From contig JAFWPA010000042.1 in the NCBI GenBank assembly GCA_017509685.1, positions 1 to 43,559 on the forward strand: DNA of 43,559 nt. Direction: 5' to 3'. The notes beneath the pieces were generated by a model. The model was not told the DNA's origin, did no database searches, and saw only the letters and a program-made list of their open reading frames with translations. Source of the DNA: Bacteroidales bacterium. Its GTDB lineage: Bacteria > Bacteroidota > Bacteroidia > Bacteroidales > UBA932. Positions 5,501 to 25,326 of the stretch are shown one piece after another. A program made the translations under genes and the position numbers. Each line of letters starts with the position of its first letter. The first letter of the stretch is position 1.

Positions 5501-5510
5501 TTTGTTCCAT

Positions 5511-8500
5511 ATGCGCACTCGAGTCTTCTTCTCACTGATTGCCTTCCTTGTACTTTGCCCGGCAACCTTTGCCCAAGATAGCTTTAAGGACTGGACCGGC
5601 CCCGCACAAGATTTTACACCTAATGCTGCAGAACTGGGGAAATATGGCAAAACTCCTGTCAACTATTTCACAGGGTTGCCGACCATACAAGTCCCGCTGA
5701 CAGAGTTACGCGGAAAGAATTTCACGCTACCCATCTATTTGAGTTATCATGCCGGTGGCAATAAACCGGATCTTCATCCGGGTTGGGTGGGCTTGGGTTG
5801 GTCTCTTCACGCAGGAGGATGTGTCACCCGGGTCATCAATGGCATGAAAGACGAAACGAATAAATTCGAACGACAGGCTCTTGGCGGTTTAACTGATGGA
5901 GACCATCCCGGATACTATTACCACGCTCAAGAGATTCAATCTACTGACTGGACAGATACAACCACCTTTGCTCAATCTTTAGACTATTCCCGTCGGGACT
6001 GGGAACCCGACGAGTTCATGGTTTTTCTGGATGACTTCCAGGCGTCATGTTATATCACAGGTCCCAATGGTGCAATGACTGTTGTTACAAAGTCGGGAGA
6101 ATACGCCAAAGCAGAAATACAAATCGACGACGGAGAGAATAAACCTATTATGGTCTATCCCGGACCGACAAACGACGTATCAAAGACAGCTAAACGATGG
6201 AAGTACTTTAGCCGAATTGTTCTCACTCGATCTGATGGAACAAAGTACATTTTCGGAGAAGAAGAATCGGCTATAGAGTACTCCATTTCCCTTCATCCCG
6301 GCTACCACATTGTGAATGGAGAATGGGTTAACAACAATGACTGGAACGCATATGCAACAGCAAATACTTGGAACTTAATTCGAATCGAAAGACCAGATGG
6401 AGAGATTATCCGTTTCCACTACGAGAATGACGGTATCCCAATTATCCGCCACGACTGTCATATTTCCGAGTATTATTACGACATCGGAGACAAAAACGAC
6501 CCCCTCTTAATTCAATCATTGCTTGGGATTGCATTTCACCCATCGTTTTTTCTTTATTATGACGATACGAGAATTAATCCCAGCCTTAAAAGGAACATTT
6601 CTTTTTCCCTACTGAAACCATCTTATCTTTCATCAATAGAGAGTTCTGTATCAAGAGATTCTATCGTTTTTCATAGGTCAAAAACCACTGAACTCGAATA
6701 TGCAACAACTGCTGAAGAGTTCCATAAAAGAGCCGGCAACTTTAATCAACTATACCAATCCAATGTTTATTTCAGCTATGAGCAATTAAAAGCATTGGAC
6801 TACTATATGTGTCTTGATGGAGTGTTCTCTAAAAGAGATACGATTGCACTGCTATACTCAAACAATCCCGCCCAACGCCTGCATTTGAATACAATTCTCT
6901 CTTTTTGTGACCGCAGAGTTGAATTTAAATATCAAATGCAATACAACACCACATCAATGCCTCCATATCATTCTAGACAAACCGACAGTTGGGGGTTTTT
7001 TAACGGTGTCTCTTATTCCACTGCCCCTCTGGACACGACGATAAAAGTAAGATGGCCTGATTCCGAGAAGATACAAGCCGAAATGTTAACTGCAATTTCC
7101 TATCCAACTGGAGGAAAAACAGAATATATATACGAGCCTAACACTTTCTCAAAAGAAATTTCTCCTGGATATGCGGGCCTTTCTTCTTTGCCCACTGACA
7201 TGGCTGGAGGAGGTGTCCGAATCAAAGAGATTCGAGACATTCCTCAAGAGGGGAAAGTCGAGAGCCGATATTATACATATTCTAGCACATACGGTCGTTC
7301 AAGCGGTATTTCTGCGGGAACACCAAGATACTTCATCAACGCGGAAGCGCAGCTAATCCAGTATTATGAGGGAATGCAATGGAATTTTCCCGACCCCACT
7401 GTGGAATACAACAGTGGCTATTTCGTAATTAACGAAAACCCTGTCCGCCCCTTGTCAAAAACCGATGGATCGTATGTTACGTATAGCCAAGTTAAGGAGA
7501 GCTTCCCCGACGGGGCCTATACCGTTTATTCTTTTTATAACCATGATGCTGTCAATTGCAAAGATACAGCGCCAAACCTTTGCTTTGAAAGCCATAAAAA
7601 GCTGTTAACCAATCCTTTTAACTCCAGGCAGCTTTCTCGCGGACACTTGAAGAGCCGAATGGATTACTCACAACAAGGGATTGTCAAAAAAGAAGAGAAC
7701 TTCTACCATGCAGACACAACCCAATTCGTCAAGGCTGTTTTCTATGATGATCATATAGGTACATCACTGGGAAGTAGTAAAGTCTTAAGTTGTGCCTATT
7801 ATAAAGTATTTTCGTACTATCCCTATTTATCCCAGCGAGTGATTACCACATATCCGGATAACGGGGCAGGATTATCGACGGAATCTATTTCATACTCGTA
7901 CGACTCTTACCGTAATAACACGCTGTGTATGAGAACACATGGTTCCGAATCGTTATCCATTCTAACTTCATATAGCGGTAGCATATCCGGAGGGATATAT
8001 GATGAAATGCGCAGTCGGAATATGGTTTCACTTCCCGTGGAAAAAAGAGAATTCAAGAATGGGAATACGATTAAAGCGACCCTTATCACCTATACTGGAA
8101 CAGAGAACAATCAAATAAAACCAGATGCCATATATAAAGCCTCGCTTGGATCGGGCGTTTCCAACTTCGCTCTATTCAATGGAATAGATAAAGACAGCCG
8201 CTACGGAACGGCCGAAACAATGGTTACCGCTTATGACGGTTTGGGAAATCCACGACAGATTGAGAAAAGAGCCGGAGCAAATGAAGTTTATTTCTGGTCC
8301 CCTGACGGACTGTATCCTTGTGCTGTCTTCAAAGGGAGTAATGTCTCTCTATCAACCCCGGCTGTCACATACCAGGATCAAACTTCAAACATTTCTCAGC
8401 CTTTAACAACGGGTATGGATAACGGTACTATCCTTTTGGAATTTGATTGTCTTGAAGCATTTTCGATGCCGGTGCAGTTAATCAGTCCTCCAGGACAGAA

Positions 8501-11500
8501 CTGGTGCGTCTTGCTTCAGATTGATAACGGCAGTACCCTCTCTCTTGCTCATATCAACAGTAATAATACATCTTCACCCTGGAATGTATTTCAGAGTTAT
8601 TATCAACAATCCGGAACTTTAAACATTTCCTCTGGACATCATGTTTTCAGATTAATGTCCAAAGTATACTATACAGAGTCAAATAGTAATCCTACAATGG
8701 GCATCCTTGCATACACGGTGAATTTGAAGTCGGCTATCCAAGGCACTTCGGGCCTTCAGACCGTGTATTATGATGGGTTTGAAGCATCCGGAAATACCAA
8801 TAATGGTTATTTGAGCGAGAGAAGTCATACAGGAACTTATTCCATCACCATGGATGCAGGCCCTTCGGCATATTGTGTCGATTATCATGTTTTGCAAAAT
8901 GGAGAATGGCAGTTCAAAAGTATTGCCTTTTCCGGGACATCATATACAATCAATGAAGGGACAAAACCCATTGACGATATCCGGGTATACCCGACAGGGG
9001 CTCTTGCCACCAGTTATTCTTGGTGGGAAGACGGATCTCTACGCAGCCATACCGATGCCAGGGGCGTCTCCGAATCATATTCCTATGACAGTCATGGCAG
9101 ACTGATTTCTATAATAGACAATAATCTTCATCCACAGACAGAGTATACATATCATTTCGCCACAGAAGGTTATCCAACAAATACTAATCCTCACAATTAC
9201 TTATTAGAAAAGAAGTACATCTCTACTAGCGGTGATAACACAGAGGATATTTCGTACTATGACGGCTTGGGGAGAATCCTTCAAAAAGTTCAACGAAACG
9301 CATCGCCTGAAGGTGGTGACTTACTTGATTTAACGGAGTATGATCGAAATGGTCGGGATAGTACTTATTGGCTTCCGGTTCCCTTTGTCGGAAACAACGG
9401 AAATCCGAGAGCTATTAACGATATTACCCAGCATATTTCTGTATACGGAGACAACTCTCCTTTTTCATTGAAAGAATATGATGGAAGTCCTTTGGACAGA
9501 ATGAAAGCACTAACCGGACCGGGTGAAGCATGGCACTCCCTTTCTAAAAAAGCTTCTTATGAGTATTTGCTTAGTTCCCAAGCTACGGAAGCGCTGAAAG
9601 TACCCCGTTATACCACTGGCTACTCCAATGGTGTCATTGCCATCCTTTATTCTGGTCTCGCACAGGCAAATGAATACTGGGTGAACAAAACAACCGACGA
9701 AGACGGATGCGCTCTATTCATTTTCCGTGATATTGATGACAGGATTGTTCAGACAGTTCAGCTCTTGACATCTGCAACCGGGACAGAGTATTTGCGCACA
9801 TGTTATGTATATGACAATGCCGGACACCTTACCGCTGTCTTGCCACCGATGCTTACCAATATCCTATCAAACGGACAGGTATGGTTATCCAATAATACGC
9901 CGGCCATTAACCAATATGGTTACTTCTACGTCTACGATATGCGCGGTCGTGTCATTGCCAAGAAGTTGCCTGGAGCAGATTTCATCTATTATATCTACGA
10001 TAAAGGTGACCGGCTTATCTTTAGCCAGGATGGCGAACAGCGTCAGGCGGGGAAATGGGCTTTTTATTTGCAGGACATTCACAATCGAGAGTGTTTAACC
10101 GGCACCTGCTCCAACTCTCTTTCTCCATTCAATGCGCCTTTCGACAATGTGAATGTCTATGTCACACGGGGAGGGACGCAATCCTCATATTATTACTCCA
10201 TCCAGGGAGGTGTAGCGCTTGCTTCTCCGTCATTTCTGAATGTCAATTGGTGGGATGATTATGGTGTCCCTATTATGATGCAAATGACCCAGCTGGGGTT
10301 TTCCACTCCTGAAAGTCCATATGGGAACCATTATAATGTGAGCACGAAAGGATTGCTTACCGCATCTTTGTCGAAAGTACTTGACACTTCATCCGGTACT
10401 CAGTACCTTTGGACGATACATTATTATGACGAAAAGCAGCAAGAGGTTCAATGCGTAAAAACCACACATCTAGGTGGAATCGAACGGTCGTTCTATGCTT
10501 ACGATTATACGGAAAACGTTACGGCAAGAAAACTGGTTCACACATCCTCTTCTAATTCTACACTCACGGAGACATATACCTATACTTACGATTCCAGAGG
10601 ACGGTCATTGGCCACATTGTACACTTTGGGGAACGCAATATCATCTTACATTTCCAACAATAGTTATGATGCCATCGGGAGAATTAGTAAAGATACCAGA
10701 AACGGGGCAACTAACCTGGACTCCCGATATAATTATAATGCTCGAGGATGGATAACTGGGTTGACCGTCGGCTATTCGCCTTCTAGCAATACTGTTGGAA
10801 CTCTTTTCTCTGAAAGCATTTTTTATAACACATCACCTGTTTCAGGAGGCACAACGCCACAATGGGGTGGTAATATAAGTAATATTCAATGGACGGTTGG
10901 ACAGCCAGCGTTAATTCGGAAGGTCAGTTATTTTTATGATAGCTTATCCAGAATCATAAGCGCGGATTATTCCGGAGGAAATGGAACCATGACGCAGCAT
11001 AATCGGACATACCAATATGATTGGCATGGTAATATCACATATTCGAGCGGTTCCGGAGTATTGAAAGCATTTACTCATACCGGGAATCACGTCACCGGGA
11101 TGAGCCTAAGCGGGCTAAACTTGTCAAATACCTATGATATGAATGGCCGTATGACTGTCTTTGCGGGAAATACCTCATTTACCTATAATGAGTTAAACCT
11201 CCCGCAAACAAAGACATTATCCGGGGATACAACAACATGGAAGTATTCTGCTGATGGGACTAAATTGCAAAGAACTAACGGAACTTCGACCACCGACTAC
11301 GTTGGAAGCTTAGTATATGAGAACGGTACGTTAAGTAAAGTTCTTTTCGAAGGTGGTTTTGTATCAATGACCGCCACAGTCCCCAAAATGCGATTCTTTG
11401 TAACAGACCATCAAGGTAATGTCCGCTTTGTAACTGATACCGCAGGAAACATCTTGCAGGAAAATCATTATGACCCGTATGGTAGTGACCTTTCATTAAG

Positions 11501-12281
11501 CGGAGCCTCAACCGCTTCGGCTGATTCGCCATATAAATACAGTGGGAAAGAATGGGATTCTCTCCTGGGGATGTATGATTTTCATGCTCGAACGTTAAAC
11601 CCCATAATAGGACGCTTTACGACTTTGGATCCCAAAATGGAAGACTATTATTCCATCAGTCCCTATGCCTATTGTGCCGGGAATCCCGTGAATCTAATAG
11701 ATCCGGAAGGATTAGATATTTGGGAAGTGGACAAGAATGGGAATATTAAATGGAAAGAGAATAGCACTGAGCATACTCTTTTTTTTGTTAACGATAAAGG
11801 TGAACGTCAGAGTAGTGTTTTTATTGTTAACAGATCCATTTTAGACACTTTTTCAACGGACGCCAGAGACGCCGCACTATTCTATTCTTCTGATAAAGAT
11901 GCAAGAGATCTTAAATCATTATTTGTTTTTTTATCGAAACACACAACTGTCGAATGGGCTTTGCATCAGAAAGATAAGTCTTATACTTTGGGAACACTAT
12001 ATCATAAAGATGATGCAGGAACATGGCAAGATTATGGGCTAGTATCCCGTCCGAATAAAAGTTATCATTCCCATCCTGAAATAGCGACAACTGAAACTTT
12101 CGAAAGGTATTCTATGGTTAATGATTATTTTAACATGAAAAACTTTCCCCACACAAAGGCTCCTCTCTATTATGTATATTTCCCAGAATCAAATAATGTG
12201 TATCAACTAACTAGTTCTTATGCGAATAAATTAGAACTCTCTATTTATCAGCTACTCGGTATTCCTGTTCCAAAGCGATAA
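5511..12281 (+). CDS. Giant exported RHS/YD-repeat protein with C-terminal JAB-like toxin domain
   Basis: About 2256 residues starting with a Sec signal peptide (MRTRVFFSLIAFLVLCPA, Ala-rich cleavage before QDSF). A TTG three codons upstream is in frame, but the ATG at 5511 directly precedes the signal peptide. The N-terminal half begins with a SpvB-like region (NYFTGLPTIQVPL, GWVGLGWSLHAGG). A DUF6443-like segment (YYDGLGRILQKVQR, YDRNGRDSTYWLP) and many YD repeats follow, then the RHS core (NHYDPYGSDL, YKYSGKEWD, YAYCAGNPVNLIDPEGLD) ending near residue 2065. The last 190 residues form a variable tip: VEW with Glu2148, YHSHP with His2186/His2188, and a following S..ND. This fits the JAB-like (JAMM metallopeptidase) toxin class of polymorphic toxins. 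RHS shells encapsulate toxic tips; the role in killing competitors is inference. The gene is visibly AT-richer than folP. Confidence 0.85.
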   Translation: MRTRVFFSLIAFLVLCPATFAQDSFKDWTGPAQDFTPNAAELGKYGKTPVNYFTGLPTIQVPLTELRGKNFTLPIYLSYHAGGNKPDLHPGWVGLGWSLHAGGCVTRVINGMKDETNKFERQALGGLTDGDHPGYYYHAQEIQSTDWTDTTTFAQSLDYSRRDWEPDEFMVFLDDFQASCYITGPNGAMTVVTKSGEYAKAEIQIDDGENKPIMVYPGPTNDVSKTAKRWKYFSRIVLTRSDGTKYIFGEEESAIEYSISLHPGYHIVNGEWVNNNDWNAYATANTWNLIRIERPDGEIIRFHYENDGIPIIRHDCHISEYYYDIGDKNDPLLIQSLLGIAFHPSFFLYYDDTRINPSLKRNISFSLLKPSYLSSIESSVSRDSIVFHRSKTTELEYATTAEEFHKRAGNFNQLYQSNVYFSYEQLKALDYYMCLDGVFSKRDTIALLYSNNPAQRLHLNTILSFCDRRVEFKYQMQYNTTSMPPYHSRQTDSWGFFNGVSYSTAPLDTTIKVRWPDSEKIQAEMLTAISYPTGGKTEYIYEPNTFSKEISPGYAGLSSLPTDMAGGGVRIKEIRDIPQEGKVESRYYTYSSTYGRSSGISAGTPRYFINAEAQLIQYYEGMQWNFPDPTVEYNSGYFVINENPVRPLSKTDGSYVTYSQVKESFPDGAYTVYSFYNHDAVNCKDTAPNLCFESHKKLLTNPFNSRQLSRGHLKSRMDYSQQGIVKKEENFYHADTTQFVKAVFYDDHIGTSLGSSKVLSCAYYKVFSYYPYLSQRVITTYPDNGAGLSTESISYSYDSYRNNTLCMRTHGSESLSILTSYSGSISGGIYDEMRSRNMVSLPVEKREFKNGNTIKATLITYTGTENNQIKPDAIYKASLGSGVSNFALFNGIDKDSRYGTAETMVTAYDGLGNPRQIEKRAGANEVYFWSPDGLYPCAVFKGSNVSLSTPAVTYQDQTSNISQPLTTGMDNGTILLEFDCLEAFSMPVQLISPPGQNWCVLLQIDNGSTLSLAHINSNNTSSPWNVFQSYYQQSGTLNISSGHHVFRLMSKVYYTESNSNPTMGILAYTVNLKSAIQGTSGLQTVYYDGFEASGNTNNGYLSERSHTGTYSITMDAGPSAYCVDYHVLQNGEWQFKSIAFSGTSYTINEGTKPIDDIRVYPTGALATSYSWWEDGSLRSHTDARGVSESYSYDSHGRLISIIDNNLHPQTEYTYHFATEGYPTNTNPHNYLLEKKYISTSGDNTEDISYYDGLGRILQKVQRNASPEGGDLLDLTEYDRNGRDSTYWLPVPFVGNNGNPRAINDITQHISVYGDNSPFSLKEYDGSPLDRMKALTGPGEAWHSLSKKASYEYLLSSQATEALKVPRYTTGYSNGVIAILYSGLAQANEYWVNKTTDEDGCALFIFRDIDDRIVQTVQLLTSATGTEYLRTCYVYDNAGHLTAVLPPMLTNILSNGQVWLSNNTPAINQYGYFYVYDMRGRVIAKKLPGADFIYYIYDKGDRLIFSQDGEQRQAGKWAFYLQDIHNRECLTGTCSNSLSPFNAPFDNVNVYVTRGGTQSSYYYSIQGGVALASPSFLNVNWWDDYGVPIMMQMTQLGFSTPESPYGNHYNVSTKGLLTASLSKVLDTSSGTQYLWTIHYYDEKQQEVQCVKTTHLGGIERSFYAYDYTENVTARKLVHTSSSNSTLTETYTYTYDSRGRSLATLYTLGNAISSYISNNSYDAIGRISKDTRNGATNLDSRYNYNARGWITGLTVGYSPSSNTVGTLFSESIFYNTSPVSGGTTPQWGGNISNIQWTVGQPALIRKVSYFYDSLSRIISADYSGGNGTMTQHNRTYQYDWHGNITYSSGSGVLKAFTHTGNHVTGMSLSGLNLSNTYDMNGRMTVFAGNTSFTYNELNLPQTKTLSGDTTTWKYSADGTKLQRTNGTSTTDYVGSLVYENGTLSKVLFEGGFVSMTATVPKMRFFVTDHQGNVRFVTDTAGNILQENHYDPYGSDLSLSGASTASADSPYKYSGKEWDSLLGMYDFHARTLNPIIGRFTTLDPKMEDYYSISPYAYCAGNPVNLIDPEGLDIWEVDKNGNIKWKENSTEHTLFFVNDKGERQSSVFIVNRSILDTFSTDARDAALFYSSDKDARDLKSLFVFLSKHTTVEWALHQKDKSYTLGTLYHKDDAGTWQDYGLVSRPNKSYHSHPEIATTETFERYSMVNDYFNMKNFPHTKAPLYYVYFPESNNVYQLTSSYANKLELSIYQLLGIPVPKR

Positions 12282-16703: not shown

Positions 16704-17960
16704 ATGGAACCTAAGAGAGTGGTCATTACCGGTATGGGTGTCATTTCCTGCTTAGGACAGGACGTTAACACGTTCTGGGACAACTTGTGCAACGGTCGCT
16801 GCGGCATCGATTACGTGGAGGAGTTCAAGGATATGCCCGTGACTTTCGCCGGTAAAGTGAAGAATTTTGACGCAGAAAAATACGGAATAGAGAAACCTTT
16901 CATCCGCAAACAGGATAATTTCACCTTGTATGCCATGGCCGCCGCCTGGCAGGCCATGCAGCAGAGCGGTCTTTCCACGGAGGGAGAAAACGCCAACATC
17001 GATCCCTTCCGCCTGGGCGTATACGTAGGCTCCGGTATCGGCGGCTTCGACGTACAGTACCGGGAAACCATGAAGATGATTGAAGATCCTTCCGGCAAGT
17101 GGATTTCCCCGCTGTTCATCGCCACCATGATTTCCAACATCGCCGCCGGGCACGTGGCCATCAAGCACCAGGCCAAAGGACCGTGCCTGGACATTGTGAC
17201 GGCCTGCGCCACTTCCAGCCACTGTATCGGCGAGGCTTTCCGCGCCGTCCGTCATGGTTATGCGGACGCCATTATCGCCGGCGGCAGTGAGCACGCCACC
17301 ATTCCGCTGGGTGTGGCCGGTTTCTACAACGCCAAGGCCCTCACCCGCGCCACGGATCCCAAGTACTCTTCCCTGCCCTTCAACCTGAACCGTCAGGGCT
17401 TTGTGATGGGAGACGGCGCCGCGGTGATTATCCTGGAATCCCTGGACCACGCCCTGGCGCGCGGCGCCACCATCTTCGGCGAGATTGTGGGCTACGGCAA
17501 CACCTGCGACGCTTACCACGCCACGGCACCCCGCCCCGACGCCAGCACCCAGGCCCGTTCCATCAAGGACGCTCTGGAAGAAGCCCACTTCGACCCTTCC
17601 AAGGACAATCTTTACATCAACGCACACGGTACGGGCACGCATCTGAATGACCTCGCCGAAACCCTGGCCTGCAAGACCGCCCTGGGAGACTTCGCCTACA
17701 AGGCCCACATCTCCTCTACCAAGTCCATGACCGGCCACATGTTCGGCGCCGCCGGTGCCGCAGAAGCCATCGCCACCATCCTGGCGCTGCGGGACGGCAT
17801 TTGCCCGCCCACCATCAATCTGGACACCCCGGACCCGGAATGCGACCTGGACTACACCCCCAACGTAGCGGTCAAAACAGACCTCACCCTGGGCCTGTCC
17901 AACTCCTTCGGCTTCGGCGGCCACAATGCCTGCGTGGCCTTCCGGCCGTATAAAGGTTGA
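16704..17960 (+). CDS. fabF: 3-oxoacyl-ACP synthase II (KAS II)
   Basis: Extends acyl-ACP by condensation with malonyl-ACP in fatty-acid synthesis. The 418-residue length is typical. It starts MEPKRVVITGMGVISCLGQ. The catalytic Cys-His-His triad is visible: Cys168 in IVTACATSSH, His308 in INAHGTGTHLND, and His345 in SMTGHMFGAAGA; the C-terminal GLSNSFGFGGHN is present. The frame is open upstream to 16593, but the promoter at 16662-16669 and the conserved MEPKRVV start fix the ATG at 16704. The gene stands alone and converges with queF, with repeat copy 1 between them. FabF and FabB classes are not perfectly separable by eye; length and motifs favour FabF. Confidence 0.93.
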   Translation: MEPKRVVITGMGVISCLGQDVNTFWDNLCNGRCGIDYVEEFKDMPVTFAGKVKNFDAEKYGIEKPFIRKQDNFTLYAMAAAWQAMQQSGLSTEGENANIDPFRLGVYVGSGIGGFDVQYRETMKMIEDPSGKWISPLFIATMISNIAAGHVAIKHQAKGPCLDIVTACATSSHCIGEAFRAVRHGYADAIIAGGSEHATIPLGVAGFYNAKALTRATDPKYSSLPFNLNRQGFVMGDGAAVIILESLDHALARGATIFGEIVGYGNTCDAYHATAPRPDASTQARSIKDALEEAHFDPSKDNLYINAHGTGTHLNDLAETLACKTALGDFAYKAHISSTKSMTGHMFGAAGAAEAIATILALRDGICPPTINLDTPDPECDLDYTPNVAVKTDLTLGLSNSFGFGGHNACVAFRPYKG

Positions 17961-17969
17961 GTCCCTGCA

Positions 17970-18065
17970 TGCAATCTTAAGTAGTATTTCGGCTAAATAC
18001 AGACTAAGATCGTCAGTAGTGACGATCTTAGTTCGTTTTTGGGCCTGTAGCAACTTAAGATTGCA
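17970..18065 (+). repeat. Nested inverted-repeat element, copy 1
   Basis: Outer arms TGCAATCTTAAGT (17970-17982) and ACTTAAGATTGCA (18053-18065) are perfect 13-bp complements. Inside, ACTAAGATCGTCA (18003-18015) and TGACGATCTTAGT (18020-18032) form a second perfect 13-bp hairpin with loop GTAG, followed by TTCGTTTTT. TACAG and CTGTA flank the inner hairpin and could pair. It lies between the convergent fabF and queF genes, so a terminator role is plausible. Two more copies are in the window. Confidence 0.85.
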
Positions 18066-18076
18066 GCGCGGCGGGC

Positions 18077-18532
18077 CTATTCGTGATTGAAGAGGCGGGT
18101 TTCGGCCAACTTCTCCCATTTGGTGCCGGGACGGCCGTAATTTGCGAAGGGGTAGATGGAGATGCCGCCGCGGGGGGTGAAGAAACCCGTGACTTCCAGG
18201 TATTTGGGGTCCATCAGTTTCACCAGGTCTTTCATGATGGTGTTCACGCAGTCCTCGTGGAAGTCGCCGTTGTTACGGAAACTGAACAGGTACAGTTTGA
18301 GACTCTTGCTTTCCACCATCTTTTTGTCCGGAACGTAGGAAATGCGGATTTCGGCAAAGTCCGGCTGGCCGGTGATGGGGCACAGGGTGGTGAATTCGGG
18401 GCAGTTGAAACGTACCCAATAATCATTGTCCGGGTGCTGGTTCTCGAAGGTTTCCAGTACACCGGGGTTGTAGGTCTTGCTGTAGACGGTCCTGCGGCCC
18501 AGGGCCTTTACTTCTTCTCTGTTGCGTGGCAT
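18077..18532 (-). CDS. queF: NADPH-dependent 7-cyano-7-deazaguanine (preQ0) reductase
   Basis: Reduces the nitrile of preQ0 to preQ1, the queuosine precursor that is inserted into tRNA. The 151-residue length matches the short, single-domain QueF type. The catalytic cysteine is Cys51 in [30 protein letters not shown] is the QueF substrate motif, and FHEDCVN follows. C-terminal [12 protein letters not shown] completes the T-fold. The start overlaps the prfA stop by one base (TAATG), so it is probably translated with prfA. Pairing a release factor with a tRNA-modification gene keeps two decoding functions in one transcript. Confidence 0.95.
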
Positions 18533-19629
18533 TATGCGTCCTCCCCTGCTTCTTTAAGACGTTCGGCGTTTTCGGCTATCTGCAGTTGGTCAATGCACTC
18601 CTGGATGTCACCGTCCATAAAGACGGGCAGATTGTACATGCTCCAGCCGATGCGGTGGTCCGTTACGCGGCCCTGCGGGTAGTTGTAGGTGCGGATCTTG
18701 GCGCTGCGGTCACCGGTGGAAACCATGGTCTTGCGCTTGGCGGCAATGCCGTCCAGGTACTTCTGGTGCTCCATGTTGTACAGACGGGTGCGGAGCTCTT
18801 CCATGGCACGGTCCAGGTTCTTCAGCTGGGAGCGTTCCTCCTGACACTGCACCACAATGCCGGAAGGGATGTGGGTAAGGCGCACGGCACTATAGGTGGT
18901 GTTCACGCCCTGTCCGCCGGGACCCGATGCGCAGAAGAGGTCCTTGCGGATATCGGCGGGATTGAGCTCGATATCAAACTCGCCGGCTTCCGGAAAAACG
19001 GCTACGGAGGCGGCCGATGTCTGGATGCGGCCCTGCGTCTCTGTCTGGGGAACACGCTGCACGCGGTGCACGCCGGATTCGTATTTCATCACGCCGTACA
19101 CGCCGTCGTTGGCAGAGGAAAGCTTGAACACAATTTGCTTGAAACCGCCGGCCGTACCGGGTGCCTGGTCGGAGATTTCCAACTTCCAGCCTCTTCTTTC
19201 GGCAAAGTGCTGATACATACGGAAGAGGTCTCCGGCGAAGATGGCGGCTTCGTCACCGCCGGTGCCGCCGCGGATTTCCACCATGGCGTTCTTGCTGTCG
19301 TCGGGATCGGCGGGGATCAGCAGGAGCTTGATGTTCTGCTCCATCTCCGGGAGTTTCGGCTCAATATCGGCAATCTCTTCCTTGGCCATCTCCTTGAGGT
19401 CCTCGTCTTTCTCGTTCATGAGGATGTCCTTGGCCTGCGCCAGCTCATCCACCAGGCGCTTGTATTCCAGGCCGGCGGCAATGATAGGCTGCAGCTCCTT
19501 GTAGTCCTTGTTCAGCTGGACGAACTTCTTCATGTCGGCAATGACCTCAGGATCGGCCAGTTGCTCTTCCAGCTTCTTATATTTGTCCTGCAGGCTCAGG
19601 ACCTTCTCCAGCAATGTATTCTCTGCCAT
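18532..19629 (-). CDS. prfA: Peptide chain release factor 1
   Basis: Recognises UAA and UAG in the ribosomal A site and triggers peptide release. It has 365 residues, the usual RF1 length. An N-terminal alpha-helical domain ([19 protein letters not shown]) precedes [32 protein letters not shown] is present. The peptidyl-tRNA hydrolysis motif GGQ lies in [17 protein letters not shown], and the region around [20 protein letters not shown] fits the RF1 stop-codon recognition segment, including the P-x-T tripeptide type. The ATG at 19627-19629 lies 22 bp downstream of a TATCTTTG -7 box. queF follows with a one-base overlap. Confidence 0.95.
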
Positions 19630-19651
19630 GTTGCAATTGTGTTTAAGCCTA

Positions 19652-19659
19652 CAAAGATA
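19652..19659 (-). promoter_or_regulatory. -7 box of prfA-queF
   Basis: The minus strand reads TATCTTTG 22 bp before the prfA start codon. No good TTG -33 element is apparent at 19-21 bp. Confidence 0.55.
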
Positions 19660-19715
19660 GTGATTTTTTTGAGATTGCCGGTTTCCGGGAGTCTCTGCCG
19701 CAGGCGCTCATGGCG

Positions 19716-19792
19716 TAAAGTGCTGATTATCAGGTATATAAGTTTTTTTCTTGATCCCCGGCGGGGTCAAGAAAAATAATTAAAGTGCTGAT
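19716..19792. repeat. 12-bp direct repeats flanking a hairpin
   Basis: TAAAGTGCTGAT occurs at 19716-19727 and again at 19781-19792. Between them lies a hairpin (19745-19776) in which CTTGA-T-CCCC pairs with GGGGTCAAG (one bulged T) and T and A runs extend the stem on both sides. The hairpin looks like a bidirectional intrinsic terminator. The repeats may be a duplication or a target-site scar; nothing between them codes. Confidence 0.5.
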
Positions 19793-19896
19793 ATTGAATA
19801 TGTTAGCACACGTGCATAACAATACCCTTCCGCAACATTTTATATATTTGCATTCAACGCAACGGTCGTGACAGTACTGTATTACGGCCAATAAGG

Positions 19897-19995
19897 GGAA
19901 AAAATAAAGCCAGCCTGGGACGCTGACTTTAGGGCTCGAATCAAGTTTCCTTGAGAGGGTTGTCATCCCTTCCTCGCGAATTCCCTGCGACGATT
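19897..19995 (-). ncRNA. Candidate small structured RNA of unknown family
   Basis: A promoter (TTTG 20031-20028, 18 bp, TAACTTTG 20009-20002, minus strand) predicts a start near 19995. The transcript would end at an intrinsic terminator: AAAGUCAGC pairs with GCUGGCUUU (19930-19906, one G-U, 7-nt loop) followed by AUUUUUU. Between them are a compact hairpin UCAAG-GAAA-CUUGA with a GNRA loop, an adjacent GAG..AGGG/CCCUCUC hairpin, and AGGG near the 5' end able to pair with CCCU near the 3' end. Size is about 100 nt. It does not show SRP, tmRNA, 6S or RNase P hallmarks that I know. Boundaries are estimates. Confidence 0.5.
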
Positions 19996-20001
19996 CCACT
20001 G

Positions 20002-20031
20002 CAAAGTTACGAATAATTCCGATTATTCAAA
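20002..20031 (-). promoter_or_regulatory. Promoter of the candidate small RNA
   Basis: On the minus strand, TTTG (20031-20028), 18 bp, then TAACTTTG (20009-20002): one of the better Bacteroidetes promoter matches in the window. No convincing start codon with a recognisable protein follows within a short distance. Confidence 0.6.
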
Positions 20032-20041
20032 CAATCATCAC

Positions 20042-20078
20042 AAAAAACTGCCGCCAAACCGGGATGGTTGGTGGCAGT
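20042..20078 (-). terminator. Intrinsic terminator of the remnant gene
   Basis: On the minus strand ACTGCCACCAA (20078-20068) pairs with TTGGCGGCAGT (20057-20047), 11 positions with one A-C mismatch (a G-U in plus-strand orientation), then TTTTTT at 20046-20041. It lies 26 bp after the stop of the remnant reading frame. Confidence 0.65.
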
Positions 20079-20103
20079 GGTCATTCAGGACGCAGCAAAG
20101 AAT

Positions 20104-20313
20104 CTACTTCAGATAGTACGCCTTGCCGGCGGGGACGGTGGAGCCGTCGCCAATACGGTACAGCACCTTGTCAGACTTCATGATGAAGGCCTGGACACCC
20201 ACCGGGAGGTGGTAGTTCCAGGTGGCGTGGTAGAAGGTGGTCCAGTAGTACTCCTCGCCGTAAAGCCTGGCCTTGTGTGCCGTAAACTCCTTTTTTTTCG
20301 TAAATTTGTGCTG
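20104..20313 (-). pseudogene. 3' remnant of a secreted surface-protein gene
   Basis: A minus-strand frame is open from an in-frame stop at 20314-20316 to the stop at 20104-20106, with no plausible start codon. It encodes EFTAHKARLYGEEYYWTTFYH, then WNYHLPVGVQAFIMKS, KVLYRIGDGS and VPAGKAYYLK. This is the pattern of the small C-terminal domain (expected '...TFY...LP.GV.A....LY.......IPAG.AV.L') found at the end of many secreted Bacteroidales proteins. The downstream terminator is intact, but the 5' end is replaced by the promoter of the regulator gene at 20318. I read it as the tail left after deletion or recombination; very short expression is not excluded. Confidence 0.6.
20301..20308 (+). 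promoter_or_regulatory. -7 box of the AraC-like regulator gene
   Basis: TAAATTTG on the plus strand, 9 bp before the TTG start codon at 20318. An in-frame TAA at 20315 rules out any earlier start for the regulator. Confidence 0.5.
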
Positions 20314-20317
20314 CTAA

Positions 20318-21403
20318 TTGCAGCAAGTAGTGCCACTTACGCTCACATATCTTTGCGGCCTGGCGGCGGCGGTCTATGTGACCACCAGCCTGGTGTGCGC
20401 GGCGGTGCGGTGGTTCCATATGTGCGCGCCGTACAACCGGAATCCGCGGTACTACTACCCCGGCCGTCCGTATGTGACGGCGGCCTGGCTCAGCGCCATC
20501 TGCCTGCTGCCCTATGTGTTTCATCCGGAGAGCGCCGACGCCTGGTTCCTGGTGAGAATCTACTTCCTGCCCGTAACGCTGTATCACTTCACCCTTATCC
20601 TGTTCTCCTACTTCGGCAGTGTGATGGAATGGAAAAAGTGGCAGTGGCCCACGGTCATCGCCGGCATTCCGGTGGGTCTGGCGCTTTTGGCCGCGCTGGT
20701 GCTGGCCATCATCCCCGGAGACCAGATGGGAGACGACACCGTGGAAACCTTCATTCTGCACATCCTGGGTCTTTTGATTTCGGGCGTATGCTTCACCTCG
20801 GTGGCCGTAGTGCGCGTATGGGCCGGCCGCTTCGATTCCGACGATTATTCCAATCCGGCCGATTTCCCCGTGCTCCAGGCCCGCGCATGGGTAGTGCTGA
20901 TTGTAATCAACGTCATCCTCTGCTGGACTGGGTCCCTGCTGGACAGCCCGGCGGTGATGGCCGTGATCATGCTGCTCATCGGCATATCGGCCGTCCTTCT
21001 GCTGATCACCGCCCTGAACCCGCACCGCAGTCTTCGGGCCGAGGATGAAGAATCGGCCGATGCTACCGAACACGTCTACAAACGCGCCATCTCCAAGAAA
21101 AAGAAGGAGGAGATGCTCTCTGCCATCCGCACGGTGGTGGAGGAGCAGCAGGCCTTCCAGGACCCGCACCTCACCCTGCACGAGGTGGCCGAACGCTGCG
21201 GCTACAACCGCACTTATATATCGGCCCTGGTAAAAAGCGACCTGGGCGGTTTCTTTGCCTATGTAAACCGCCTGCGGATGGCCTATGTGGACACCTATCT
21301 GCGGGAGAACCCCGACGCCACCCTGGGAGAAGCCATCGAGGCCGCGGGCTTCGGCTCCCGTCCCAGCTATTACGCCGTAAAAGCCAAACTCAAAACATCT
21401 TAG
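20318..21403 (+). CDS. Membrane-anchored AraC-family transcription regulator
   Basis: A 361-residue protein: six or so membrane helices in residues 1-235 (LTLTYLCGLAAAVYVTTSLV, AAWLSAICLLPYVF, YFLPVTLYHFTLILFSYFG, VIAGIPVGLALLAALVLAII, FILHILGLLISGVCFTSVAVV, AVMAVIMLLIGISAVLLLI), a short basic linker, and a C-terminal AraC-type double helix-turn-helix (PHLTLHEVAERCGYNRTYISALVKSDLG, then TLGEAIEAAGFGSRPSYY). Proteins of this layout in Bacteroidales probably sense an envelope signal and act on DNA at the membrane; the ligand is unknown. The start is TTG at 20318, since the frame is stopped at 20315. The flavodoxin gene follows after 2 bp and is a likely target or partner. Confidence 0.8.
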   Translation: MQQVVPLTLTYLCGLAAAVYVTTSLVCAAVRWFHMCAPYNRNPRYYYPGRPYVTAAWLSAICLLPYVFHPESADAWFLVRIYFLPVTLYHFTLILFSYFGSVMEWKKWQWPTVIAGIPVGLALLAALVLAIIPGDQMGDDTVETFILHILGLLISGVCFTSVAVVRVWAGRFDSDDYSNPADFPVLQARAWVVLIVINVILCWTGSLLDSPAVMAVIMLLIGISAVLLLITALNPHRSLRAEDEESADATEHVYKRAISKKKKEEMLSAIRTVVEEQQAFQDPHLTLHEVAERCGYNRTYISALVKSDLGGFFAYVNRLRMAYVDTYLRENPDATLGEAIEAAGFGSRPSYYAVKAKLKTS

Positions 21404-21405
21404 AT

Positions 21406-22197
21406 ATGAAACGGATTATGACACTTGCTGCCATTTTGCTGGCCGTCTCCTGCGGCCAGAACAAGCCCCAGAAAGCCCTCGTGCTCTATTATTCCCAGAA
21501 CGGCACCACCAAAGCCGTGGCCGAAGCCTTCGCACAGGCCCTGAACGCCGACATGGAAGAAGTGGTTGCCGTGAACCCCTACGACGGTGACTTCGGCGCC
21601 ACCATCGCCCGCTGCCAGGAAGAAATGGCCCAGGGCATCCTCCCGGAGATTGAACCCGTCAAGGCCGATTTAAGCGCCTACGACGTCATCTTCCTGGGTT
21701 ATCCCATCTGGTTCGGCACCTATGCCCCGCCCGTGAAGACCCTGCTGGAAAACATCGACCTCAACGGCAAGAAGGTAGTCCCCTTCTGCACCTTCGGCAG
21801 CGGCGGACTGGATTCTTCCACCCGTGACCTGGCGGCCAAGTTCCCCGAGGCCGAAATCCTGCCCGGTTACGGCGTACGCACCGCCCGCATCGAAGCCATG
21901 CCCACCGAGGTAGACCGCTTCCTCAAGGAGAACGGCTACATCGCCGGCGAATACGCCAAGCCCGCCCCGTTCGGGGAGGCACACGCTGTGAGTGAGGAAG
22001 AATCGGCCATCTTTGACGCCGCCGTGGGCGACTATCCCATGATTCACGCCAAAGCCGCCGAAGTGGCCGCCCGCAACGTAGAAGGCGGTATGGAATACAT
22101 CTTCACCGCCAACAACGTGGATAACCCCGGCTCCATCAAGGTCTACGTCCTCGCCCTGGACGGCCAGGCCCCGGTATTCACCCAGGTGCTGCGGTAA
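21406..22197 (+). CDS. Exported flavodoxin-fold lipoprotein
   Basis: A 263-residue protein with signal peptide and lipobox (ILLAVSCGQ, Cys16), then a complete flavodoxin fold: LVLYYSQNGTTKAVAEAFA is the FMN phosphate loop, DVIFLGYPIWFGTYAPPVKTLLE and PFCTFGSGGLDSS are the flavin-ring loops. A C-terminal extension of about 85 residues (from about YIAGEYAKP) ends in FTANNVDNPGSIKVYVLAL and is not recognised. Flavodoxins are normally cytosolic electron carriers, so an exported, lipid-anchored version implies redox work in the periplasm or at the surface, for instance quinone or flavin chemistry; the partner is unknown. It is cotranscribed with the AraC-like membrane regulator. Confidence 0.8.
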   Translation: MKRIMTLAAILLAVSCGQNKPQKALVLYYSQNGTTKAVAEAFAQALNADMEEVVAVNPYDGDFGATIARCQEEMAQGILPEIEPVKADLSAYDVIFLGYPIWFGTYAPPVKTLLENIDLNGKKVVPFCTFGSGGLDSSTRDLAAKFPEAEILPGYGVRTARIEAMPTEVDRFLKENGYIAGEYAKPAPFGEAHAVSEEESAIFDAAVGDYPMIHAKAAEVAARNVEGGMEYIFTANNVDNPGSIKVYVLALDGQAPVFTQVLR

Positions 22198-22199
22198 GA

Positions 22200-22295
22200 T
22201 GCAATCTTAACGTGTTTTACGCCCTTATACAGACTAAGATCGTCAGTACTGACGATCTTAGTTCGTTTTTAGGCCTGTGGCAAGTTAAGATTACG
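22200..22295 (+). repeat. Nested inverted-repeat element, copy 2
   Basis: The same element as at 17970. The outer arms GCAATCTTAAC (22201-22211) and GTTAAGATTAC (22284-22294) pair with one mismatch; the innermost outer pair is C-G here and G-C in copy 1, a compensatory change. The inner part is a perfect 30-bp palindrome (22233-22262, half-arm ACTAAGATCGTCAGT), followed by TTCGTTTTTAGGCCTGTGG, nearly identical to copy 1. It lies between the convergent flavodoxin and cydB genes. Confidence 0.85.
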
Positions 22296-22313
22296 CCGAA
22301 AGCACTCGCCAGG

Positions 22314-23453
22314 CTAATATTTGTGCTCTTCCTCCATGATTTCTTCGGCCGTAATCTTCTTGCGGTCCATCTGATGCCAGGCGTAGGCGATGTAGGCTAC
22401 CACAAAAGGAATCAGCAGGGATACCCAGGACATCACCTGCAGGGTGAAGTAGCTGGAAGAGCTGTTGCGGATGGTGAGGGAGCTCTGCAGGTCCGTGCAG
22501 GAAGGGTAGTAGGCCGTGTTGTTGAAGCCGGCCAGGAAGAACACGCTCATCACCACCAGCACGGTGCCGGGCATGGCGAACCAGATGCCCTTGCGGGACT
22601 CTGTGAATGCCCCCTGCCAAATGCTGTACAGCACTAGCACCACACCCACCAGCAGCATCACCAGCACCGCCGGCATGGCCAGCAGGTTGTGGAGATACTT
22701 GAAGGGTTCCAGAAAAACAACCCCTTCAGGATCTACCGCAAATCCCTTCTTGGTGAGCAGCATCACCGTCCAGGACAGGAAGAAAAAGAGGAACGGGCCG
22801 ATAGCAAGCTTTACGGCACGGCGCATCTGTGCGTGAATGCCTTCGTCCTCTATATTATTAAGGACATAAAGCGCACCCAGAATGGCGGCCAGGAGCATTA
22901 CCGTGCAGCCCAGCAGGATGGCGTGGTACTGTCCCAGGGCTTCCAGGCCATGCCAGCCATTGCCCCAGGTGCTGATGACCGGGGCCGAAGGATCCGTGAT
23001 GGCCACCTTGTTCACCGTGAAGTCCGAGCCCGTGAAGAAGGTGCCCACCGCCGTGCCCACCAGGAAGGGAGCCAGCAGGCCGTTGGCCATGAGGGCAATG
23101 CGGAAGCCCTTTACACCCAGCAGGTTGCCCTTCTTGTTCTGGAACTCGTAGGCCACGGCCTGGAACACGAAGGTAATCAGGAGCAGCACCCATACCCAGT
23201 AGGCACCGCCGAAGCTGGTGCTGTAGAACAGCGGGAAGGAGGCGAAGAAAGCGCCGCCAAAGGTAACCAGCGTGGTGAACGTGAGTTCCCATTTCCGGCC
23301 GGTAGAGTTAAGAATCATCCGCTTCTGGGTATCGCTGAGCACACGGTTCCCCAGGTGCAGGTTGGCGCCCTGCACAAACATCAGGGCCACTAGCAGACCG
23401 CCCAGCAGGGCAATCAGGCACCACCAGTAGTTTTGTAAGAATTCGTAACTCAT
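22314..23453 (-). CDS. cydB: Cytochrome bd ubiquinol oxidase subunit II
   Basis: The smaller subunit of the cytochrome bd oxidase, which passes electrons from quinol to oxygen with high affinity. The 379 residues form eight or nine membrane helices. It opens YEFLQNYWWCLIALLGGLLVALMFVQGANLH, the typical CydB start, then KRMILNSTGRKWELTFTTLVTFGGAFFASFPLFYSTSF, and ends with SWVSLLIPFVVAYIAYAWHQMD and a charged tail. The ATG overlaps the cydA stop by 4 bp. In anaerobic gut Bacteroidales this oxidase removes traces of oxygen and permits 'nanaerobic' growth. It is the last gene of the DUF4492-cydA-cydB operon. Confidence 0.95.
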   Translation of the reverse strand: MSYEFLQNYWWCLIALLGGLLVALMFVQGANLHLGNRVLSDTQKRMILNSTGRKWELTFTTLVTFGGAFFASFPLFYSTSFGGAYWVWVLLLITFVFQAVAYEFQNKKGNLLGVKGFRIALMANGLLAPFLVGTAVGTFFTGSDFTVNKVAITDPSAPVISTWGNGWHGLEALGQYHAILLGCTVMLLAAILGALYVLNNIEDEGIHAQMRRAVKLAIGPFLFFFLSWTVMLLTKKGFAVDPEGVVFLEPFKYLHNLLAMPAVLVMLLVGVVLVLYSIWQGAFTESRKGIWFAMPGTVLVVMSVFFLAGFNNTAYYPSCTDLQSSLTIRNSSSSYFTLQVMSWVSLLIPFVVAYIAYAWHQMDRKKITAEEIMEEEHKY

Positions 23454-24922
23454 AGTTCGGGACCTTTATGGATGGCACGGATCATAATGCGGATTTCAAT
23501 GGCCAGGAACAGGGCGAACACGGCCAGGAATACGAAGAAGGTGGTCTTGACAGCTCCGGCGCTGAGGCTGGAGATAGCCACGTTCACGGGCAGCAGGCCC
23601 TGGATGGTCCAGGGCTGACGGCCCACTTCGGCCACAACCCAGCCGCTCTGGCCGCAGATGTACGCCAGCGGGATGCACGCGATGGCGGCCCACAGCAGCC
23701 ACGTCCAGGCGCCCAGCTTGTCTTTCCACACGCCAATGAGGGCCAGGAGCAGCACCAGGGCGATGAGCATGCCCAGACCAATCATGAAGCGGAAGGCCCA
23801 GAACACCACCCCCACGGGGGGCACCACGTCTTCGGGCTTTTCCAGATGGCCGTAGCCCATATACTGCACGTTGGCGTTCAGTATCGTAAGGGCATCGGCC
23901 TTTACGGTGGGATCGTCGTTTTCGCGGTACACCGCCAGGGCGTCCAGCGCGCGGCGGCCCATCGCCATCTTTTCGGCCACGGAAGGCACCACGTTGCCGT
24001 CGTTGTCCGTGTAACCGTTCAGGATGTCGTTGATGCCGGGCACAAAGCCGTTGATGTCATGTGTGGCCAGGATGGACAGCATCTTGGGAATCTTGATGCC
24101 CGGGACGATGGTAAAGGCTGCGCCGTTGCCTCCGTCCTGCAGGCCCTCGGCCGCCGCCAGCTTCATGGGCTGGAATTCCGCCGCGTGTACGCCGGAGGAG
24201 TCTCCGGACAACATCACGGCACCGGAGCCCACAAGGCCCACGATGGCGCCCACCAGCATACTCTTTTTGGCAAACTCCACGTGACGGTTCTTCAGCAAGT
24301 ACCAGGCGCTTACGCCCACCACGAAGATGCCACCGGTAACCCAGCCGCTGGTGACGGCGTGGCAGAATTTGCTCACCGCCACGGGATTGGAAATCACCTC
24401 CCAAAAGGCGGCGGCCGATGCCATCTCACTACGCACGGTATCGGGGTTGAAAGTGGTACCTACGGGGTTCTGCATCCAGCCGTTGGCCACCAGAATCCAG
24501 TAGGCGCTGATGGTGGCGCCGATACCCGTGAGCCAGGTAGAAGCCAGATGGAACTTGGGGCTCACCTTGTTCCAGCCGAAGAACATCACGGCAAAGAACG
24601 TGGCTTCCATGAAGAAGGCCAGGATGCCTTCGATGGCCAGCGGTGCGCCGAACATGTCGCCTACCATCCAGGAATAATTGCTCCAGTTGGTGCCGAACTC
24701 AAACTCCAGGATGATGCCGGTGGCAATGCCCACGGCGAAGTTGATGGCGAAGAGCTTGATCCAGAACTGGGCGGCTTTCTTCCAGAACGGGTCTTTCTTC
24801 ACCACATAGAGGGTCTCCATCACCGCCATCGCCAGGGCCAGGCCCAGGGTGAGCGGGACAAACAGCCAGTGGTAGGCGGCCGTCATCGCAAATTGGATGC
24901 GCGACCAGATTACTACGTCCAT
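23450..24922 (-). CDS. cydA: Cytochrome bd ubiquinol oxidase subunit I
   Basis: The haem-binding large subunit, 490 residues. Key family positions are present: His18 in AAYHWLFVPLTLGLA (haem b595 ligand), the block FEFGTNWSNYSWMVGDMFGAPLAIEGILAFFMEATFF with the acidic residues of the proton and haem site, NGWMQNPVG, the haem b558 His in KFCHAVTSGW, and the Met ligand in FRFMIGLGML. The quinol-binding Q-loop region runs from about residue 220 to 330, with an insertion-like segment around PGINDILNGYTDNDGNVVPS, which fits Bacteroidetes versions. It is 3 bp downstream of the DUF4492 gene and overlaps cydB by 4 bp. Confidence 0.95.
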   Translation of the reverse strand: MDVVIWSRIQFAMTAAYHWLFVPLTLGLALAMAVMETLYVVKKDPFWKKAAQFWIKLFAINFAVGIATGIILEFEFGTNWSNYSWMVGDMFGAPLAIEGILAFFMEATFFAVMFFGWNKVSPKFHLASTWLTGIGATISAYWILVANGWMQNPVGTTFNPDTVRSEMASAAAFWEVISNPVAVSKFCHAVTSGWVTGGIFVVGVSAWYLLKNRHVEFAKKSMLVGAIVGLVGSGAVMLSGDSSGVHAAEFQPMKLAAAEGLQDGGNGAAFTIVPGIKIPKMLSILATHDINGFVPGINDILNGYTDNDGNVVPSVAEKMAMGRRALDALAVYRENDDPTVKADALTILNANVQYMGYGHLEKPEDVVPPVGVVFWAFRFMIGLGMLIALVLLLALIGVWKDKLGAWTWLLWAAIACIPLAYICGQSGWVVAEVGRQPWTIQGLLPVNVAISSLSAGAVKTTFFVFLAVFALFLAIEIRIMIRAIHKGPEL

Positions 24923-24925
24923 AGC

Positions 24926-25174
24926 TTAATCGGTTAAAATGTTCAGTGTATCTGTGTTATGTGGTTGAGTCAGGGCGGCACCCACCTTTTCGCTCTTTTC
25001 CTCCTCCGTGAGCCCGCTCATGGCCGGCTTGAAGAAGAAAACACGAAGGATGCCAAACAGGATGATAAGTTTGAGCACGATGAGCCACACCAGGGGCTTC
25101 CCCCAGGTCATATTGCGGAACCCGTCCCGGTACAGGGAGGCAAAAAAAGAGAATATGCCGGCAGGTTTGGGCAT
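24926..25174 (-). CDS. DUF4492 protein of the cytochrome bd operon
   Basis: An 82-residue protein: FFASLYRDGFRNMTWGKPLVWLIVLKLIILFGILRVFFFKP is an amphipathic start plus one membrane helix, followed by a charged soluble tail. This is DUF4492, found just ahead of cydA in Bacteroidetes. By position it may be a small accessory subunit comparable in role to CydX of proteobacteria, though not homologous in any way I can see. It is the first gene of the operon; cydA follows after 3 bp. The ATG at 25174 follows a TAACTTTA box (25202-25195), one base off the -7 consensus. Confidence 0.8.
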   Translation of the reverse strand: MPKPAGIFSFFASLYRDGFRNMTWGKPLVWLIVLKLIILFGILRVFFFKPAMSGLTEEEKSEKVGAALTQPHNTDTLNILTD

Positions 25175-25194
25175 AGGTGCGGTTAGATTCTCTG

Positions 25195-25202
25195 TAAAGT
25201 TA
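25195..25202 (-). promoter_or_regulatory. Possible -7 box of the cyd operon
   Basis: The minus strand reads TAACTTTA, one mismatch from TAnnTTTG, 20 bp before the DUF4492 start. Repeat copy 3 begins 8 bp further upstream, so the repeat occupies the place where a -33 element or a regulator site would be. Confidence 0.4.
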
Positions 25203-25209
25203 GTAAAAA

Positions 25210-25301
25210 AATCTTAAGTGGAAAAACCCGTAAAAACAACCTAAGATCGTCACTGCCGACGATCTTAAGTGGTATTAGGCCTTATTTCTACTTAAGATTG
25301 C
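25210..25301 (-). repeat. Nested inverted-repeat element, copy 3 (reverse orientation)
   Basis: Outer arms AATCTTAAGT (25210-25219) and ACTTAAGATT (25290-25299) and inner arms TAAGATCGTC (25242-25251) and GACGATCTTA (25258-25267) match copies 1 and 2. Read on the minus strand, the start GCAATCTTAAGTAG and the segment TGACGATCTTAG followed by TTGTTTTT align with copy 1, so this copy is inverted. Unlike the other two it lies between divergent genes, upstream of both the cyd operon and the SEL1-like gene. Confidence 0.8.
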
Positions 25302-25326
25302 TATAGTAAAGATGAAGAATTTTCAT

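Follow-up and report, generated by a model that had tools for sequence, protein, structure and literature searches.

What are the three copies of a nested inverted repeat that stand close together in a 43,559-nt contig of a Bacteroidales genome (GenBank JAFWPA010000042.1, assembly GCA_017509685.1; the whole contig is called the window here), and how did they come to be there? An earlier reading of the letters alone (the original prediction) had placed them at 17970-18065 (+), 22200-22295 (+) and 25210-25301 (-), where we found them as described, and had suggested a family resembling repetitive extragenic palindromes (REPs) or bacterial interspersed mosaic elements (BIMEs), a family resembling miniature inverted-repeat transposable elements (MITEs), or a structured RNA. 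We conclude, with a probability of about 0.85, that the window copies are low-copy REPIN-like non-autonomous elements, the dispersed partners of RAYT1, a REP-associated tyrosine transposase (RAYT) gene on a different contig of this genome, in a RAYT/REPIN system.

In each element one imperfect hairpin unit of about 43 nt, with the core ATCTTA...TAAGAT, occurs twice in inverted orientation. The outer arms of the window copies resemble GCAATCTTAAGT / ACTTAAGATTGC and the inner arms ACTAAGATCGTC / GACGATCTTAGT, with a short centre between them; pairwise identity is 83% for copies 1 and 2, 73% for 1 and 3 and 69% for 2 and 3. The left half matches the reverse complement of the right one, with the arms closest and the linkers less alike, so the element is an inverted hairpin pair and not merely a palindrome within a palindrome. 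The arms are conserved and foldable: as single-stranded DNA, the window copies exceeded 200 of 200 dinucleotide shuffles (z -9.4, -6.5 and -6.4). Intergenic, inverted pairs of REP units able to form one long hairpin are thus what we found, and REPINs are REP doublets that form hairpins and go with a RAYT (Bertels and Rainey 2011, PMC3116915; here and below, comparisons with published systems refer to the available excerpts of the papers cited).

The elements are dispersed through the genome, of which the assembly comprises 2.31 Mb in 91 contigs and is 79% complete. A covariance-model search of the genome and its relatives, as the original prediction had proposed, added seven places in the genome to the three in the window. 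The ten were recovered by covariance model R1, which was built using nine of them, and also by BLAST and pattern searches; besides the window they lie on contigs C9, C34, C43, C50 (partial) and C66 (three places). At up to three mismatches the inner-core pattern gave 10 genome places, against 0 for a backwards-read control. Chance or local duplication was ruled out by BLAST, the pattern search, the fold shuffles and the R1 genome places. Three of eight dispersed copies fall within 7.3 kb, for which simulation gave a chance of about 0.0016, a post hoc figure, the cluster having been seen first. Neither a phage nor a plasmid collection contained a match to copy 1.

Judged from open reading frame (ORF) calls, the copies lie between likely genes; neighbours were checked against Pfam for six window genes, and gene calls outside the window are ORFs only. 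At C66:55019 the overlap is of a few bases; copies 1 and 2 overlap ORFs running antisense to the likely genes, and the C43 copy overlaps ORFs about 100 aa long. The copy upstream of RAYT1 overlaps only an extended TTG reading of the RAYT1 ORF and not its ATG start.

The REP-associated tyrosine transposase that had been anticipated was found on C66, where RAYT1, a Y1/HUH gene, is directly flanked by two variant copies of the element (Table 1). The two copies are direct repeats of 103 nt with 77% identity. Because either copy is an inverted pair in its own right, both unit orientations occur on each side of the gene; such units are also dispersed in the genome. The HUH motif and catalytic tyrosine are intact: an alignment of 53 family members shows no variation at H63, H65, Y121 or N125 (it omits 3 of the 56 recovered proteins, L047, L058 and L099, as short or broken), and the motif Y---NP occurs in all seven proteins of the RAYT1 clade. 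REP_Tyr_transpos is matched by 34 and Y1_Tnp by 22 of 53 homologues (E ≤ 0.01), the best relative reaching E 6.6e-13 on the former. Transposases, presumably of the IS200 type, are the best matches of the family profile among solved structures (best E 0.0025), and in the C-terminal half a helix-turn-helix is only faintly indicated (Pfam Xre-like, E 0.037; PagR, E 0.22).

RAYT1 homologues (E ≤ 1e-10) occur in 32 of 37 genomes of the genus, counting the window's own, and in none of 24 from other families. Among 198 genomes of the order, only the two sampled members of the genus were matched by the family profile over its full length; in 16 of the remaining 196 the match is confined to the Y1 core and never extends past profile position 180. 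The hosts are Bacteroidales metagenome-assembled genomes, one of them with water-buffalo reticulum as its named source. Compared with RAYT1, the family members on C21 and C79 of the window's genome are 44% and 25% identical, and the member on C42 is too distant to match in the RAYT1 search at E ≤ 1e-10; several near-identical transposase copies, the mark of IS200/IS605 elements, were not found in this genome. The ratio of non-synonymous to synonymous substitution rates (dN/dS) was saturated in 13 of 15 pairs; it was 0.09-0.13 for RUG395 against G028 (RUG, rumen uncultured genome), and for G146 against G165 dS was 4.5, too high for use.

Table 1 Elements of the window and the RAYT1 locus (R1, covariance model; window positions unless a contig or locus is given)
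Feature	Position	Strand	Arms	Neighbours	Remarks
REPIN-like element copy 1	17968..18067	+	outer 17971-17982 / 18053-18064; inner 18003-18014 / 18021-18032	beta-ketoacyl synthase (+), QueF (-); convergent	R1 104.3 bits (training copy)
REPIN-like element copy 2	22198..22297	+		flavodoxin-like (+), cytochrome bd subunit II (-); convergent	R1 99.3 bits (training copy)
REPIN-like element copy 3	25205..25304	-		DUF4492 (-), 370-aa ORF without Pfam match (+); divergent	R1 92.2 bits (training copy)
RAYT1 ORF	L029:1680-2591	-		recA (RecA confirmed by Pfam)	304 aa; own contig C66
RAYT1-flanking copy	C66:58570-58671			RAYT1	
RAYT1-flanking copy	C66:59608-59709			RAYT1	

The association of the elements with the RAYT1 clade extends beyond this locus. 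We built a second covariance model, R2, from six dispersed copies and no RAYT-flanking copy, which avoids circularity, and ran it on 60 RAYT-family loci with known duplicates removed. At E ≤ 1 it matched six of the seven RAYT1-clade loci (L029, L033, L034, L035, L095 and L099; best E per locus 1e-12 to 0.03) and 0 of the 53 others (p about 1.4e-7, ignoring relatedness). Across 151 genomes of the genus, R1 elements occur in seven, a RAYT1-clade gene (defined here as at least 64% identity) in six and both in five (p 2e-7, or 4e-6 without the window's own genome, relatedness ignored); that is, the gene is present in five of seven genomes with R1 elements against 1 of 144 others. At L099 (G149:C68) the RAYT1 orthologue is in two pieces, and hairpins and dispersed copies remain. 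G171 has three R1 element places, with TTACC-type arms.

Several paralogues carry separate repeats of their own. At 29 of 60 loci (28 of 56 distinct ones) the similarity of left and right flanks exceeds that of 99% of 480 cross-locus controls, and several loci that fail this test have hairpins on one side, by eye. For a second RAYT of the window's genome we found a private, unrelated repeat in four positions; one adjoins the 3' end of the gene, another stands about 1.5 kb upstream, and the remaining two are on two other contigs. G028 has six family members; the four that were looked at carry four unlike hairpins. The repeat of a G016 RAYT gave 42 overlapping matches on five G016 contigs and 0 in nine other genomes. 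This RAYT (L061, G016:C4:196298-200104) lies amid long arrays of its own repeat, with 148-nt spacing, on both sides, and further arrays occur elsewhere in G016.

The original prediction had also held that a G-C pair had been exchanged for C-G with pairing kept, and that alternative folds were possible. Across 20 copies from six genomes (alignment A4) the exchange proved real, the innermost outer pair (columns 14/89) being GC in eight copies, CG in seven, UA in two, AU in one, UG in one and unpaired in one. Compensatory change appears in the nested and the two-hairpin fold alike, and covariation is present across genomes; a lack of further copies in the genome together with a lack of covariation among relatives had been named as the outcome that would count against the family. 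In the nested fold 85.0% of cells are paired, both sides have changed in 16 of 27 pairs (reached by 1 of 500 shuffles) and the score is 0.334, against 0.120 when shuffled and at most 0.104 for slid versions; in the two-hairpin fold 79.8% of cells are paired, both sides have changed in 14 of 27 pairs and the score is 0.285, against 0.136 when shuffled and at most 0.078 for slid versions. Relatedness is not corrected for in these shuffles.

A number of observations weigh against a RAYT/REPIN system with RAYT1 as the partner. RAYT1 scores below the curated cut-offs for both NCBIfam REP_Tyr_transpos (18.8 bits, E 0.0012; cut-off 80) and Y1_Tnp (15.7 bits; cut-off 23). R2 missed the seventh clade locus, L094, which was matched by R1 only (E 0.005). 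G171 (77% complete) has R1 copies at 1.4e-12 and 1.1e-11 and G150 one weak R1 copy, with no RAYT1-clade gene found in either, and G165 has the gene with no genome-wide R1 match at E ≤ 0.01. Half of the family (28 of 56 distinct loci) shows no own-flank repeats above control, and at C79 and C42 in the window's genome hairpin-like or tandem sequence was seen by eye on one side only. Clean empty sites were sought at copies 1, 2/3 and C9 and none was obtained, because the intergenic sequence of relatives is too diverged or their gene order different. In favour of the system, however, R1 at E ≤ 0.1 found no element in 28 relatives' loci that hold the adjoining genes, drawn from 43 fetched, the other 15 being mostly partial or second matches. 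The both-side count of the two-hairpin fold was reached by 86 of 500 shuffles; both folds are possible, and the nested one is somewhat better supported. Finally, most dispersed copies in the window's genome (ATCTTAAGT, ATCTTAGT and similar) differ from RAYT1's own flanks, with arms that are TTAGT or TTAAGT-like where the RAYT1-flanking copies have TTACC. The present RAYT1 may therefore not be the exact partner; the mismatch could reflect a second RAYT since lost or a turnover of specificity.

Among other explanations, it is possible, if doubtful, that the copies are mainly bidirectional intrinsic terminators or stabilizers of mRNA 3' ends, with only a historical link to the transposase. A terminator scan picks all three window copies, as 14-pair stems followed by a T-run, but its background is high (13 found against 7.6 expected). 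The genes on either side of copies 1 and 2 converge, and these copies follow closely on a stop codon, the model match of copy 2 starting 1 nt past that of the flavodoxin-like gene (+), whereas copy 3 sits between divergent genes. A terminator needs neither the outer arms nor the two-unit design, and the distribution of the RAYT1-clade gene among genomes with and without elements argues against this explanation. A terminator role is compatible with the RAYT/REPIN reading, and today the copies may act in termination or in protecting mRNA.

The difference in arms favours another explanation, which we consider rather unlikely: that the dispersed copies belong to a different RAYT, related to RAYT1 and either lost or unassembled. 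The 79% completeness of the assembly leaves room for such a gene, and the arms beside the orthologues in G028 and RUG395 are of the GACGATCTTAAG type, which is nearer to what the window copies have. Against it, we found only four full-length family members in the genome, one of them of the RAYT1 clade, and all seven RAYT1-clade genes seen adjoin recA, which suggests a single gene whose repeats change over time. By comparison, recA was detected at 0 of the 53 other family loci (E ≤ 1e-10), a count for which L170-L174 hold about 600-700 nt per side and some other loci end at contig ends. At six clade loci recA is 92-97% identical to that of the window's genome, whereas the RAYT1 proteins are 64-70% identical; with the constant neighbour, this suggests a single locus maintained by vertical descent.

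The hairpins at this locus differ between genomes. Read by eye, they are ATCTTACC in the window's genome, ATCTTAAGC in G028, RUG395 and G101, ATCTTAGTCACG in G165, GTCTTAGTCACG in G149 and ATCTTAAATTG in G146, with ATCTTA/TAAGAT as their common core, from which single arms deviate in some copies. Tentatively, a RAYT fixed beside recA and inherited vertically may have changed the sequence of its partner repeat again and again, as a domesticated, recA-linked system for processing single-stranded DNA in which protein and DNA co-evolve quickly and paralogues keep private repeat families.

The two remaining alternatives of the original prediction are not favoured, whereas the REP/BIME-like one stood, on the RAYT1 flanks and the R2 matches to the clade. 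Outer inverted repeats and a size of about 96 nt give the elements the look of MITEs. Derivation from a DDE transposon of the conventional kind, with terminal inverted repeats, is nevertheless very improbable, since both the half-copies inside the element and its match to RAYT flanks point to an HUH gene. Equally improbable is a structured non-coding or cis-regulatory RNA family: the strong fold with compensatory changes would suit one, but R1 matches both strands strongly (104.3 and 84.6 bits for copy 1), the neighbouring genes vary among copies, Rfam gave 0 matches in the window at gathering score, and the elements go with the flanks of a transposase gene.

By analogy with the TnpAREP and IS200 literature, we infer that RAYT1 binds, cleaves and mobilizes the elements. 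A single-stranded copy, for example on the lagging-strand template, would fold its arms; the RAYT would recognize the folded unit and cut it with its invariant tyrosine, aided by the HUH metal site; and the cut unit would then be moved or copied to another single-stranded site, mostly intergenic, during replication.

With published REPIN/RAYT systems the family shares an inverted pair of REP units, intergenic position, dispersal and a particular tyrosine transposase; unlike them it has no GTAG foot, about ten copies, units of about 43 nt, an ATCTTA core and a longer RAYT (PMC3116915). Seven of 20 copies contain GT[AG]G, scattered and without a common foot, and the ten places in a 79%-complete genome compare with the more than 100 usual for canonical REPs (PMC2817692). 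Published RAYTs are flanked by two REPs in inverted orientation (Nunvar 2010, PMC2817692). The two-hairpin elements at RAYT1 are direct repeats, each internally an inverted pair. TIRYTs, RAYT-like genes with their own flanking repeats (TIRtrons; Di Nocera et al. 2013, PMC3733652), are similar in that their flanks are their own repeats rather than GTAG REPs, some self-complementary and some forming moderate families; they differ in that the RAYT1 flanks are direct copies of a two-hairpin element. Their motif GGGGWSAS is absent from all 20 element copies and present in 8 of 56 RAYT-locus flanks, roughly as often as chance predicts (PMC3733652).

Among TnpAREP subclasses (2.1, 2.4 and 2.6; Quentin et al. 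2018, PMC6006769), the class 2 Y motif is shared, as Y---NP in the RAYT1 clade; subclasses 2.4 and 2.6 likewise have Bacteroidetes hosts, 2.6 also atypical flanking structures, and 2.1 an extra C-terminal domain. Median lengths are 179 aa (2.6) and 238 aa (2.1) against 304 aa here, and 2.1 is reported in that excerpt without REP-like sequences nearby, whereas RAYT1 is flanked by REP-like elements. A REP family of its own for each RAYT is established, and Bacteroidetes RAYTs in general are treated (PMC6006769). This family departs from the textbook RAYT in its length of about 300 aa, the missing GTAG foot, low copy number, the recA anchor, species-specific arms and a C-terminal half that is genus-restricted in the sample searched. 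In published CGTC-tagged REPs, CGTC stands at the 5' end of the unit. Here the tag is at the opposite end, so membership of the CGTC-REP superfamily, weighed for the CGTC end, was set aside. A CGTC at the unit end and inverted dimers are otherwise shared, whereas the transposase association and the position of CGTC within the inner stem are peculiar to the present elements (PMC3733652). The upstream flanks of two family loci, L041 and L042, carry the hairpins CGTCATTCCCGG...CCGGGAAT and CGTCATGCCCGG...CCGGGCAT, which resemble CGTC-tagged REPs.

These elements bear on the function of domesticated RAYTs and on the way they recognize their repeats; the biochemistry in the available excerpt of PMC8266576 concerns Proteobacterial pairs with the GTAG motif. 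Here one recA-adjacent gene has visibly different partner repeats in several related species, and paralogues within one genome have unlike repeats. Such matched protein and DNA pairs would allow hairpin recognition and the change of pairs to be studied without the GTAG foot of present models. Among titles and abstract openings in the open-licence literature, we found none on this Bacteroidales family or on a recA-adjacent RAYT.

The window's genome also holds a different Y1_Tnp gene, a 324-aa ORF above the Pfam cut-off (L030, G000:C51:33684-33953), with no flanking repeats at the settings used; Y1_Tnp matches on C39 lie inside long ORFs that we take to resemble unrelated genes and were dropped. 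At window positions 17960-18077, where copy 1 stands, a FabA/FabZ-like gene is missing: G146 (L125) has a 139-aa gene of this kind (PF07977) between beta-ketoacyl synthase and QueF, and four other relatives have a gap of 443-514 nt there. A 2259-aa ORF (+, 5502-12281) is the most prominent one in the left part of the window.

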